Made by a program: the position numbers and the translations under genes | In this document: piece after piece, positions 6,627 to 9,812 of the stretch | How the letters are laid out: each line of letters starts with the position of its first letter | How positions within the stretch are numbered: the stretch's first letter is position 1 | Source: Rhizobium sp. L1K21 | GTDB lineage: Bacteria; Pseudomonadota; Alphaproteobacteria; Rhizobiales; Rhizobiaceae | Assembly: GCF_024055895.1 (NCBI RefSeq) | Contig: NZ_JAMXLE010000001.1 | Span: 868,001-932,000, forward strand | Direction of reading: 5' to 3' | DNA length: 64,000 nucleotides | Notes under the pieces: generated by a model | Seen by the model: the letters and a program-made list of their open reading frames with translations, nothing else | What the model was told of the DNA's origin: nothing | The model's database searches: none

Positions 6627-7805
6627 ATGTTCAAAGATATTTCCGCGCAGTCTTTCTTCATGGGCATTCTGGTGGCTTTCGCCGGTTTTGCGAGTTCTTT
6701 TGCTGTCGTCCTGCAGGGGCTTGAAGGGGTTGGCGCAACGCCTGCACAGGCGGCATCAGGTCTGGCCGCGCTTTCCATTGCCATGGGGCTATGCGGGATC
6801 GTGCTGTCGCTCTGGTCCAAAATGCCGATTTCGGTTGCCTGGTCGACGCCGGGAGCTGCACTACTGGCCGGCACGGGTGTCGTCGAAGGTGGCTTTTCAG
6901 CAGCGGTCGGGGCATTCCTGATATCATCGGCATTGATTGTTGCAGCCGGTCTATTCAGACCGTTCGGGCGGGCCGTGGCCTCCATTCCGCCGTCGCTCTC
7001 CAATGCCATGCTGGCGGGCATCGTGCTGCCGCTTTGCCTGGCTCCCGTGACTGCAGTCGGCATTGATCCTCTGGGCGGTATCCTGATTTTTGCAGCCTGG
7101 GCGGTTGTCGGTGTCTTCAAGCGCCTCTGGGCGCTACCTGCAGCTCTGGCCGTCTTTGTCGGTCTCACTGCCTACCATCTGAATGGCTCGTTTGATCCCT
7201 CGAGCATGCCGGGGCTAGGGGCAGGGCTGGTCTTTGTCTCACCCGAATTTAATCTGCAGGCCCTGATTTCCATCGCACTGCCGCTCTTCATCGTCACCAT
7301 GGCGTCTCAGAATATTCCTGGTGTGGCTGTCTTGAAGGTCAATGGTTATGAGCCGGCTCCGGGACCGCTTTTTGCCAGTACAGGTGTTTTCTCGCTGCTT
7401 TCGGCGCCGTTCGGCGGGTTGGCCGTCAATCTGGCCGCAATCACGGCGGCCATGTGTGCGGGGGCGGATGCGCATCCCGATACGACAAAACGCTATTGGG
7501 CGGCGGCCTTTGGCGGGCTTTTCTATATCCTCTTCGGATTGGCAACTGGCGTGATCACCTGGTTTGTCTCGCTTTCTGATCCTGTCTATATCAAGGCCGT
7601 GGCAGGTCTTGCGTTGATTGGCGCGCTGACGGGGGCCGCAACGGCGGCCTTCAGCGATCCGCGCACACGCGAGGCGGCGGGCGTTACCTTTCTGGTCACA
7701 GCCTCCGGGCTCTCGTTCGGTGGGGTGTCGGGCGCATTCTGGGGCCTCATTGCCGGTGGCGCGGTGCTGGCGATGAATGCCGTTTTTCGCAAGGACTTGC
7801 CATAA
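6627..7805 (+). CDS. BenE-family transporter (benzoate/H+ symporter type)
   Basis: A 392-residue inner-membrane protein with about 11-12 hydrophobic helices. PISVAWSTPGAALL, ASIPPSLSNAMLAG and GLAVNLAAITAAMCAGADAHPD are the conserved stretches of BenE transporters. The family takes up benzoate with protons, but many chromosomal homologues have no tested substrate. ATG 6627 is the first codon of the conserved N-terminus (MFKDIS). No benzoate-degradation genes are nearby, so another substrate is possible. The gene ends 28 bases before the leuA leader peptide. Confidence 0.85.
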   Translation: MFKDISAQSFFMGILVAFAGFASSFAVVLQGLEGVGATPAQAASGLAALSIAMGLCGIVLSLWSKMPISVAWSTPGAALLAGTGVVEGGFSAAVGAFLISSALIVAAGLFRPFGRAVASIPPSLSNAMLAGIVLPLCLAPVTAVGIDPLGGILIFAAWAVVGVFKRLWALPAALAVFVGLTAYHLNGSFDPSSMPGLGAGLVFVSPEFNLQALISIALPLFIVTMASQNIPGVAVLKVNGYEPAPGPLFASTGVFSLLSAPFGGLAVNLAAITAAMCAGADAHPDTTKRYWAAAFGGLFYILFGLATGVITWFVSLSDPVYIKAVAGLALIGALTGAATAAFSDPRTREAAGVTFLVTASGLSFGGVSGAFWGLIAGGAVLAMNAVFRKDLP

Positions 7806-7832
7806 TCCAAATGCCGGGCTATACGGCTTGCC

Positions 7833-7955
7833 ATGAAGACACGGTTCGAAAAACAGACGACGACGATTTCGCGGGAGCGCAATGCTTCCGGTATCATCGC
7901 GCGCACCGTAAACTCGCTTCTTCTCCTCGGCCTTACACGCGGTTGCCGGGTCTGA
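7833..7955 (+). CDS. Candidate leucine leader peptide of leuA
   Basis: A 40-codon ORF between the transporter gene and leuA that ends with SLLLLGLTRGCRV. Codons 29-32 and 34 are leucine (CTT CTT CTC CTC GGC CTT, 7917-7934), and the stop TGA (7953-7955) sits immediately before a strong hairpin. A run of codons for the end product just before an RNA hairpin is the mark of ribosome-mediated attenuation, a mechanism known for leucine genes in proteobacteria. The ribosome binding site before ATG 7833 is weak, so the peptide may start at a later codon. The leucine run is the reliable part. Confidence 0.72.
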   Translation: MKTRFEKQTTTISRERNASGIIARTVNSLLLLGLTRGCRV

Positions 7956-8005
7956 GGAAAGAGCGCCCGGCGGCCGAAAACCGCCTGAGGCAAAAGCGCT
8001 CTTTC
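7945..8005 (+). promoter_or_regulatory. Attenuator RNA structures before leuA
   Basis: Two mutually exclusive stems are visible. GAAAGAGCGC (7957-7966) pairs perfectly with GCGCTCTTTC (7996-8005) and encloses GGCGG/CCGCC (7969-7973 with 7981-7985). Alternatively GCCGGG (7945-7950) pairs with CCCGGC (7966-7971), which breaks into the first. Ribosome position on the Leu codons would decide between them. There is no clean T-run after the long stem, so which state terminates transcription cannot be settled by eye. Confidence 0.65.
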
Positions 8006-8114
8006 AAAATCACCCTATAACTTGAATTTCAGGCGTAAAGATTGCGCCGATGTGTGTCGCCAAAGCTTCTTTGATGGGCTAAAAGCGCGGCACAAGGGAA
8101 GAGACGAGACGACA

Positions 8115-9812
8115 ATGATCAAGCAAGTTTATCATCCGCAAAACGGCATGCCGGCTGCCGGCGTGAAATATCAGGCCTATCCGCAGGTGGGTTTGAGCGA
8201 CCGCACATGGCCTTCGAAACAGATTGAAAAGCCGCCGATCTGGTGCTCGGTCGATCTGCGTGATGGCAATCAGGCTCTCATCAATCCGATGGGGCATGAT
8301 CGCAAGGCACGCATGTTTCAGTTGCTGCTCGACATGGGTTTCAAGGAAATCGAGATCGGCTTTCCTTCAGCCTCTCAGACCGACTTCGATTTTGCCCGCT
8401 GGTGCATCGAAGAAGGCGGCGTACCCGATGATGTGTCCTTGCAGGTGCTGGTTCAGTGCCGCCCGGAACTGATCACCCGCACTTTCGAGTCGCTGGAAGG
8501 CGCCAACAAGCCGATTGTGCATTTCTACAATTCCACCTCGGAATTGCAGCGCCGCGTGGTGTTTGGCAAGGACGTGCAGGGCATCAAGCAGATTGCCGTT
8601 GATGCCGCCAAGATGATCCGCGACATGGCGGAGAAGGCGGGCGGTGGTTACCGGTTCGAATATTCGCCGGAAAGCTTTACCGGCACGGAACTGGATGTTG
8701 CGCTGGAAATCTCCAATGCGGTGATTGAAGTGATGCAGCCGACGGCGGACAACAAGCTGATCCTGAACCTGCCGGCGACGGTGGAAATGTCCACACCGAA
8801 CATCTATGCCGACCAGATCGAGTGGATGTGCCGCAACATCGAAAACCGCGAAAATGTGATCGTGTCCCTGCATCCGCACAATGACCGGGGGACCGGCATT
8901 GCGGCAACCGAGATGGGCTTGCTGGCTGGTGCTGATCGTGTGGAAGGAACGCTGTTCGGCAATGGCGAGCGGACCGGCAACGTGGATATCGTCACTCTGG
9001 CGCTGAACATGTTCACCCAAGGGGTCGATCCGAAGCTCGATTGCTCCGACATCGAGCGCATCAAGGCGGTCTATGAATATTCCAACGAATTGAAGATCCC
9101 CGAGCGTCATCCCTATGTGGGTGAGCTGGTTTACACAGCCTTTTCCGGCTCGCACCAGGACGCCATCAACAAGGGCATGAAGGCGATCAAGACGGCCAAC
9201 AAGCCGCTCTGGGAAGTGCCTTACCTGCCGATTGATCCGCAGGATGTGGGACGCACGTATGAGGCGATTATCCGCATCAACTCGCAGTCGGGCAAGGGCG
9301 GCATCGCCTACATCATGGCCGAGGATTACGGGATCAACCTGCCACGCAAATTGCAGGTGGAGTTCCGCGAAGAGATTCAGCGCATTACCGACGAAGAGGG
9401 CGTGGAGCTTCCGCCGAAGCGCATCTATGAACGTTTCATGGAGCGCTATGTAGAGCAGCCTGGCGCGCGCCTGAAGTTCCTTGACCACCATTCCCACACC
9501 GACCCGAATCGTCCGGGCTATCGCATCGTTGCCGCTGAAATCATCGACAATGGCGAGAAGAAGCGGATCGAGGGCAAGGGTTCCGGTCCCGTGGCAGGGT
9601 TTGTTGATGCACTGTCGAAATATCTGGGCATTGATCTGAGTGTGAACGATTATTCCGAACACTCGTTGCAGCATGGTTCGGATGCTTCCGCCATCTGCTA
9701 TATGGAAATCGATGCAGCGGGCAAGACGGTCCATGGTGTTGGGATCAACGCCAATATCGTGGCGGCATCCCTTGAGGCGATCGTTTCCGCAGCGAACCTG
9801 ATTGGCCGCTGA
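8115..9812 (+). CDS. leuA: 2-Isopropylmalate synthase LeuA (class II)
   Basis: A 565-residue enzyme that condenses acetyl-CoA with 2-oxoisovalerate, the first committed step of leucine synthesis in the cytoplasm. The DRE-TIM barrel begins at SVDLRDGNQAL, with the metal ligands completed by SLHPHNDRGTG. After the barrel comes the C-terminal regulatory domain (about residues 430-565) for leucine feedback. Length and sequence match the long LeuA type (about 560 residues). ATG 8115 is chosen as the start of the conserved MIKQVYHP region; in-frame codons from 8022 lie within the leader RNA. Expression is probably attenuated by the upstream leucine-rich leader, in addition to allosteric inhibition. 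Confidence 0.95.
   Translation: MIKQVYHPQNGMPAAGVKYQAYPQVGLSDRTWPSKQIEKPPIWCSVDLRDGNQALINPMGHDRKARMFQLLLDMGFKEIEIGFPSASQTDFDFARWCIEEGGVPDDVSLQVLVQCRPELITRTFESLEGANKPIVHFYNSTSELQRRVVFGKDVQGIKQIAVDAAKMIRDMAEKAGGGYRFEYSPESFTGTELDVALEISNAVIEVMQPTADNKLILNLPATVEMSTPNIYADQIEWMCRNIENRENVIVSLHPHNDRGTGIAATEMGLLAGADRVEGTLFGNGERTGNVDIVTLALNMFTQGVDPKLDCSDIERIKAVYEYSNELKIPERHPYVGELVYTAFSGSHQDAINKGMKAIKTANKPLWEVPYLPIDPQDVGRTYEAIIRINSQSGKGGIAYIMAEDYGINLPRKLQVEFREEIQRITDEEGVELPPKRIYERFMERYVEQPGARLKFLDHHSHTDPNRPGYRIVAAEIIDNGEKKRIEGKGSGPVAGFVDALSKYLGIDLSVNDYSEHSLQHGSDASAICYMEIDAAGKTVHGVGINANIVAASLEAIVSAANLIGR

Follow-up and report, generated by a model that had tools for sequence, protein, structure and literature searches.

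The leuA gene of Rhizobium sp. L1K21 is preceded by a short leucine-rich ORF and by RNA helices that can pair in two conserved, alternative ways. We give a probability of about 0.6 to the reading that this region is a leucine leader of the type described before leuA in Actinobacteria as the LEU element, in which a translating ribosome would sense the leucine supply. The stretch of DNA analyzed here (the window) is 64,000 nt long and comprises positions 868,001 to 932,000 of the forward strand of contig NZ_JAMXLE010000001.1 (assembly GCF_024055895.1). Coordinates below are window positions, and all features are on its + strand. By its translation and family match, the gene at 8115–9812 is leuA, encoding a 2-isopropylmalate synthase of the TIGR00970 type.

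The leader ORF and its promoter

The leader ORF (7833–7955; 40 codons and the stop codon TGA) is recognized by its translation, by family comparison and by the strict ORF test given below. Its product is MKTRFEKQTTTISRERNASGIIARTVNSLLLLGLTRGCRV, ending NSLLLLGLTRGCRV, and its stop codon is 159 nt from the leuA start. Codons 29–34 (7917–7934) encode L L L L G L, which is the set of five leucines in six positions that an earlier sequence-only reading had found in a 40-codon ORF here; sequence, family comparison and codon bias all point to this as the regulatory leucine run. A LeuA match is present in 193 of the 199 genomes of the GTDB family Rhizobiaceae (the six without one, G005, G044, G076, G091, G093 and G168, are all 1.2–2.0 Mb), and our family sample consists of the 150 leuA loci that could be placed from the LeuA list, the other 43 LeuA-positive genomes lying outside it. 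A short ORF with a leucine-rich end precedes leuA in all 150, its stop codon 126–253 nt upstream of the leuA match. A stricter test (at least four Leu within six of the last 14 codons, and a stop 90–260 nt upstream of the leuA match) is passed at 146 of the 150 loci in the sense direction, at one in the antisense direction and at 0, 0 and 0 of 150 in three shuffles; the leucine run is thus conserved among relatives, a check that the sequence-only reading had proposed. An independent search with a core pattern found the leader in 50 of the 199 family genomes, once in each; since the pattern was built on leaders of the RGCRV kind, it misses those of the GDRR type. The commonest endings, GDRRAR, GDRRVR, RGCRVL and RGCRVR, account for 104 of the 150 leaders and are, as judged from the alignments, differing peptides that encode one helix arm.

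There are usually four to six leucine codons near the leader end, and 63% of these codons are the rare CTT, compared with 3% in the leuA genes of 30 loci. The length of the leader and its N-terminus vary across the family while the leucine run and the CTT bias persist. NCBIfam gave no match for the three leaders tested, and the idea that the leader is a named protein family was rejected on these grounds. We consider it very likely that the leader ORF senses leucine.

A predicted −35 box, CTTGCC (7796–7801; the family consensus is the same), and a predicted −10 box, CTATAC (7819–7824; assigned from the family consensus), are 17 nt apart in the window, and the latter ends 8 nt upstream of the leader ATG. 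The family consensus has CTTGCC and, past a spacer, TATAAG, followed after mostly 7–10 nt by the ATG, with C at position −1 in 88%; where there are several ATGs (78 loci) the leader start was picked partly by means of the −10 box, and the 72 single-start loci give the same promoter motif. A scan for E. coli-type promoters found no match for the leader promoter. The leader transcript is predicted to start at or adjoining the leader AUG. Because the promoter adjoins the ATG and Shine-Dalgarno-like motifs are few there (14 of 150 loci), the leader ORF is probably translated leaderless, and S. meliloti trpL is reported to be leaderless as well (PMC10117765). The sequence-only reading had named a transcription start downstream of 8005 as evidence against it; none was found and the conserved promoter lies before the ORF, though an extra start nearer to leuA is possible. 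Mean promoter-like scores are 7.62 between S2b (the last helix arm, below) and leuA, 8.53 before the leader and 6.68 in shuffles of the upstream stretch, these stretches being of unequal length. The interval between S2b and leuA (8020–8114 in the window) carries a weak promoter-like signal in the family average.

Alternative structures of the leader RNA

One base past the leader stop codon begins a perfect 10-bp stem (7957–7966 with 7996–8005); the sequence-only reading had the stem right and its distance from the stop codon wrong, at two bases. We call the base of this hairpin S2. Its 5′ arm, S2a (7957–7964), is identified by pairing and compensating changes, and its 3′ arm, S2b (strand 4; 7998–8005), which has no U-tract after it, by pairing. 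The other helix, S1, has 12 bp including three G-U pairs and joins S1a (strand 2; 7940–7951; pairing and compensating changes) to S1b (strand 3; 7965–7976; pairing and the linker test below). S1b is also a potential partner of the linker L3 (7977–7997; linker test), in which CCGCC (7981–7985) pairs with GGCGG (7969–7973) to give an extended hairpin. S1 clashes with the upper part of that hairpin and, of the ten pairs in the base stem, with no more than the last two, so the competition between two stems that had been claimed holds for the upper hairpin and these two pairs and not for the base of the hairpin, which stays free.

The minimum-energy fold of the window leader includes S1. The folding energy of this leader alone is unremarkable (z −1.12, with 27 of 200 shuffles equally stable), and the case for the structures therefore rests on comparative evidence. 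Our alignment A2 holds 95 of the 109 non-redundant family leaders (14 divergent ones were set aside, and the other 41 of the 150 are near-copies). On it 98.9% of the S1 cells are paired and 34 are double-changed, where shuffled alignments give 12.8; for the six-pair core of S2 the paired share is 99.1%, and when a seventh, poorly kept pair is counted in, S2 has 12 double-changed cells (1.9 when shuffled). Jointly the two helices are paired in 99.0% of cells and have 45 double-changed cells, against 13.7 for shuffled and 0–6 for slid controls, the latter pairing in 29.5–50.9% of cells. Thirty-one of these 45 cells are one A-U to G-C swap, which is taken to mark one clade, so the number of independent compensating events is smaller than that of double-changed cells. 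Compensating changes, which the earlier reading had also suggested looking for, are thus found in S1 and in S2, both of which pair in about 99% of cells. Covariation is absent from a 1:2 pause helix (CTCGGC:GCCGGG), which had been considered as well and was ruled out on this account.

Pairing of L3 with S1b has an energy of −13.7 kcal/mol, compared with −9.5 kcal/mol for shuffled linkers (149 loci), and all five shuffled linkers are weaker in 66% of loci. By this comparison the linker is under selection to pair with S1b, and the aligned leaders have two conserved states, S1 and the extended hairpin, with S2 fitting both. Because S1 leaves the hairpin base free, S1 and S2 can, by their predicted pairing, form together as an H-type pseudoknot. 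The loops of this predicted pseudoknot are ordinary (L1 median 6, L2 zero in 126 loci, L3 median 20), and at 146 of the 150 family loci its score is higher than that of 95% of shuffles. The adjoining positions of S2a and S1b suit a plain hairpin as much as a pseudoknot, which counts against the LEU reading. An AGGAG past the leader stop was considered as a start site and ruled out by eye, there being no conserved start codon downstream.

These two states suggest how a LEU-type leader could work here. One fold would consist of S1 (7940–7951 with 7965–7976), which with S2 makes the pseudoknot, and the other would be the extended hairpin, made of S2 with a further hairpin above it in which S1b takes part. 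At low levels of charged Leu-tRNA the ribosome would stall on the leucine run and leave S1a uncovered; S1 and the pseudoknot would then form and leuA would be expressed. When leucine is plentiful, the ribosome would be at the stop codon, where it would cover S1a and S2a, and the extended hairpin would form.

Two rival explanations give the leader ORF or its RNA another role. The fold is compact and strongly conserved, as might be expected if the pseudoknot were the binding site of a regulatory protein and the leader ORF secondary; the discoverers of the LEU element proposed this for Actinobacteria, and their proposal, together with the results on S. coelicolor mutants that PMC1262725 relates, lends it some weight. 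We consider it improbable for the rhizobial leader, in which the leucine run and the bias toward the rare CTT codon outlast changes of length and N-terminus. The leader might instead yield a small RNA or peptide that acts in trans, as the S. meliloti trp attenuator does with rnTrpL and peTrpL (PMC10117765, PMC7298713). This precedent notwithstanding, the leuA leader has no terminator that would give such an RNA a defined 3′ end, and the C-terminal residues of the peptide track the S1a arm (GDRRAR or RGCRV, with S1 kept) while its N-terminus varies, so we regard a trans-acting product as very improbable.

The missing terminator and the output

The sequence that follows the 10-bp stem in the window is AAAATCACCC, which has no T-run. 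At least five T occur in the 8 nt after the stem in two of the 150 leuA leaders, and T in these 8 nt averages 1.61, against 1.15 in downstream sequence, although the stem finder at times chose a different helix (as in L086, L146, L152 and L170). For that reason the count of T-runs before leuA is the better measure of a U-tract: a run of at least five T is present in nine of the 150 leuA leaders, whereas 24 of 30 trp leaders from the same family have one (a control set in which one ORF, that of L315, looks wrong). TTTT or longer occurs in a minority of leuA leaders. The sequence-only reading had remarked that the final T-run of a terminator is missing, and this holds for the window and for nearly all of the family's leuA leaders. 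Since the trp leaders mostly have a U-tract, its absence is a trait of the leuA leader and not of Rhizobiaceae.

In the genome from which the window comes, the trpE leader (L182) encodes MIKTLNIANWWWAR and the ilvI leader (L188) the branched-chain MKNLFVLIVVGQRMGRMV; in both cases a hairpin and then seven T come after the leader. The trpE locus is just upstream of the window, and its leader spans −195 to −150 relative to the trpE match; the ilvI leader is at −185 to −128 of its match. These attenuators resemble the leuA leader in having codons for the end product in a leader ORF, competing helices and a leaderless-looking start, but differ from it in ending with a hairpin and U-tract. The enteric leu leader (Leu_leader in Rfam) likewise places a leader with leucine codons before leuA, but it has no Rfam match to the rhizobial element, and the latter is without a U-tract. 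The Rfam covariance models gave no match at gathering score in the whole window or in eight related loci, and none even up to E 10 when run against the rhizobial leuA leader family.

Could this nevertheless be classical transcription attenuation, with S1 as antiterminator and the extended hairpin as a terminator that lacks the U-tract? The regulatory codons of the leader peptide and the competition between two structures are what such an attenuator would have, and the minority of leaders with TTTT or longer agrees with it. The rarity of longer T-runs relative to the trp leaders, the seven T that the trpE and ilvI hairpins of the same genome carry and the base stem S2 that S1 leaves free all speak against it, and we consider it quite unlikely. 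The layout of ribosome-mediated attenuation attributed to this region by the sequence-only reading therefore survives in its leader ORF, its two conserved alternative structures, its rare leucine codons and its conserved promoter, and fails in its transcription terminator. That reading also allowed that the mechanism might differ from the enteric case, an opinion that the absent U-tract, the free hairpin base and a layout nearer to that of the actinobacterial LEU element reinforce. On the comparisons made here the rhizobial leuA leader is not a classical enteric attenuator, and the LEU layout fits it better.

The output of the leader is probably something other than an intrinsic terminator, termination without a U-tract being less likely. 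The leuA ribosome site (8094–8109) is purine-rich, and its sequence and duplex tests make it a possible, weak partner of the leucine run, with a perfect match of 5 bp in the window. A ribosome stalled on the pyrimidine-rich leucine run would occupy it, and the run could otherwise pair with this site. A translational output through access to the leuA ribosome site, as has been proposed for actinobacterial LEU elements, would follow from such pairing, and we favor it tentatively, at somewhat less than even odds. In the family loci the duplex of leucine run and ribosome site has an energy of −13.55 kcal/mol, compared with −11.75 for shuffled and −12.70 kcal/mol for species-swapped partners. The excess over shuffles is −1.69 for leuA and −0.54 for 44 other genes, all taken from the window alone, 30% of which reach the leuA mean; set against the control genes, the leuA site ranks in the best 10% at 48% of 60 loci. 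The same test shows little in Actinobacteria (own −11.8, swapped −11.3 and shuffled −11.0 in 76 loci). The spacer from hairpin to leuA varies across the rhizobial family, which counts against a LEU-type base stem. Strand 4 (CTCCTT) was also considered as an anti-Shine-Dalgarno sequence for leuA and rejected: it would be freed under starvation, which is the wrong sign, and it has no excess complementarity.

A ribosome parked on the leucine run would relieve pairing at the ribosome site and Rho action alike, and both outputs therefore have the right sign. In Rho-dependent attenuation Rho would load on C-rich, G-poor RNA, in the leucine run and after S2b, and stop transcription before leuA when leucine is plentiful, and a stalled ribosome would mask the loading site. 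The composition agrees with this on average (C 0.42 and G 0.11 in the leucine run, and C 0.34 and G 0.12 at +45 to +60 past the stop codon, means of 150 loci), and over the 45 nt that follow S2b, 81% of 146 loci have more C than G. In the window this stretch has 10 C and 8 G, however, and the C-richness of the leucine run also follows from its CTT and CTC codons. An S. meliloti leader with a uORF and no intrinsic terminator, that of a DUF1127 gene, has been attributed to Rho (PMC12218461). It is like the leuA leader in that a uORF exerts control without an intrinsic terminator, but it responds to tetracycline, and the parts of that report available to us mention neither a run of amino-acid codons nor a conserved pseudoknot. 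Rho alone leaves the two conserved alternative helices unexplained, and we think it an unlikely alternative to control at the ribosome site.

Relation to the actinobacterial LEU element

The LEU element was described before actinobacterial leuA by Seliverstov et al. in 2005 (PMC1262725) as a leader ORF with a leucine run, a pseudoknot and an alternative hairpin, with a base stem formed by the leucine run and the leuA Shine-Dalgarno box. A terminator and other parts of an attenuator were reported missing from it and leader mutants of S. coelicolor were at odds with classical attenuation, so that how it works was left open at the time (PMC1262725). The leuA leader of S. lividans (leuL1) is reported to be leaderless and without a typical terminator (PMC8079986), and leuA leaders are also reported in C. 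glutamicum (PMC4046766) and C. diphtheriae (PMC5784534). Our actinobacterial sample consists of 80 leuA loci, 75 of which have a leucine-rich short ORF by a loose test. All 76 loci selected for the pseudoknot test score above shuffles, and the parts stand in the order found in the rhizobial leader, namely leucine run, S1a, stop codon, S2a, S1b and S2b. On alignment A4 (40 of 51 non-redundant actinobacterial leaders) S1 and S2 together are paired in 99.9% of cells. The rhizobial leader thus shares with the LEU element the downstream gene, the leucine-run ORF, a stop codon between S1a and S2a, a predicted H-type pseudoknot with an alternative hairpin, the lack of a terminator and, as predicted in one case and reported for S. 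lividans in the other, a leaderless start. It differs in the sequences of S1 and S2, in its longer leader ORF, in the longer and variable spacer to leuA and in the weaker base stem, and the LeuA proteins of the two groups do not group together. We consider a LEU-like architecture of the rhizobial leader likely.

A covariance model of the rhizobial leader was run on the window together with 69 further leuA loci, of which 39 are actinobacterial. In these 39 it gave five weak matches at the LEU position (the best with E 0.047) and four elsewhere, and it matched the leader of L196, from an alphaproteobacterium of another family, with E 0.0022. In a sample of 289 genomes of the class, which gives no frequency for the element, the model finds the window at 85.8 bits and the leuA leader of another family, in G701, at 48.6 bits; this leader ends ILLLGLIGARRA, and by eye its S2 is in the corresponding place but differs in sequence. 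A match in G735 was taken as false, as it lies inside an open frame that by eye looks OmpA-type. By pseudoknot score L196 (G451) and L202 (G419) look LEU-like, and most of the other 28 proteobacterial loci are not clearly so. LEU-like leuA leaders outside Rhizobiaceae were thus seen at L303 (G701), L196 (G451) and L202 (G419). Leaders guessed to be sphingomonad-like or Pseudomonas-like were rejected as LEU elements, having leucine-rich ORFs without a clear LEU pseudoknot. Other alphaproteobacterial leuA leaders (L194, L195, L197, L203, L204, L207, L210 and L212) end in RP and have a stem of CCCTTAGGC:GCCTAAGGG, or nearly so, that spans the stop codon, with no evident U-tract. In the non-alpha proteobacteria L215, L217, L219 and L220 conserved short ORFs like LILLRQHACLRLVSPRLRG precede leuA, and the pseudoknot signal is absent in the three of these that were tested (L215, L217 and L220).

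In a tree of LeuA proteins Rhizobiaceae form one group and Actinobacteria another, each at 100/100 and not joined. This tree does not support the idea, considered here, that leuA and its leader were acquired together from Actinobacteria. The TIGR00970 cut-off is passed by 92 of 299 genomes of the phylum sample and by none of 25 genomes that belong to the same order but not to Rhizobiaceae. The likeness of the two leaders may come from shared descent or be convergence, the latter as judged from a layout that is common to both without clear sequence similarity and from LeuA proteins that do not group.

Our searches of the open literature listed no account of a leuA leader in Rhizobiaceae, although Vitreschak 2004 and Lopatovskaya 2010 may list one. 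The word leuA is absent from the main texts of the papers on Ribo-seq and start sites in S. meliloti. Rho-independent terminators were a requirement of the survey by Naville and Gautheret (PMC2965389); among leader peptides Corbino et al. mention one for ilvB and, in the text available, none for leu (PMC1273637); and the available text of the reinitiation paper of Zverkov and colleagues has nothing on leu (PMC4833913).

Rhizobiaceae, a few other Proteobacteria and Actinobacteria might all have one leucine-sensor architecture, with a leaderless ORF of leucine codons, an H-type pseudoknot whose first loop holds the stop codon, and a stalled ribosome that switches between pseudoknot and hairpin and frees the leuA ribosome site; in this full form the idea is doubtful. 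If true, it would describe a translational attenuator without a terminator that is very old or has evolved more than once. Amino-acid leaders of such a kind can escape searches that demand a terminator with a U-tract. The same layout in Rhizobiaceae would provide a second lineage in which the working of the LEU element may be tested, with a large and diverse alignment and with models such as S. meliloti.
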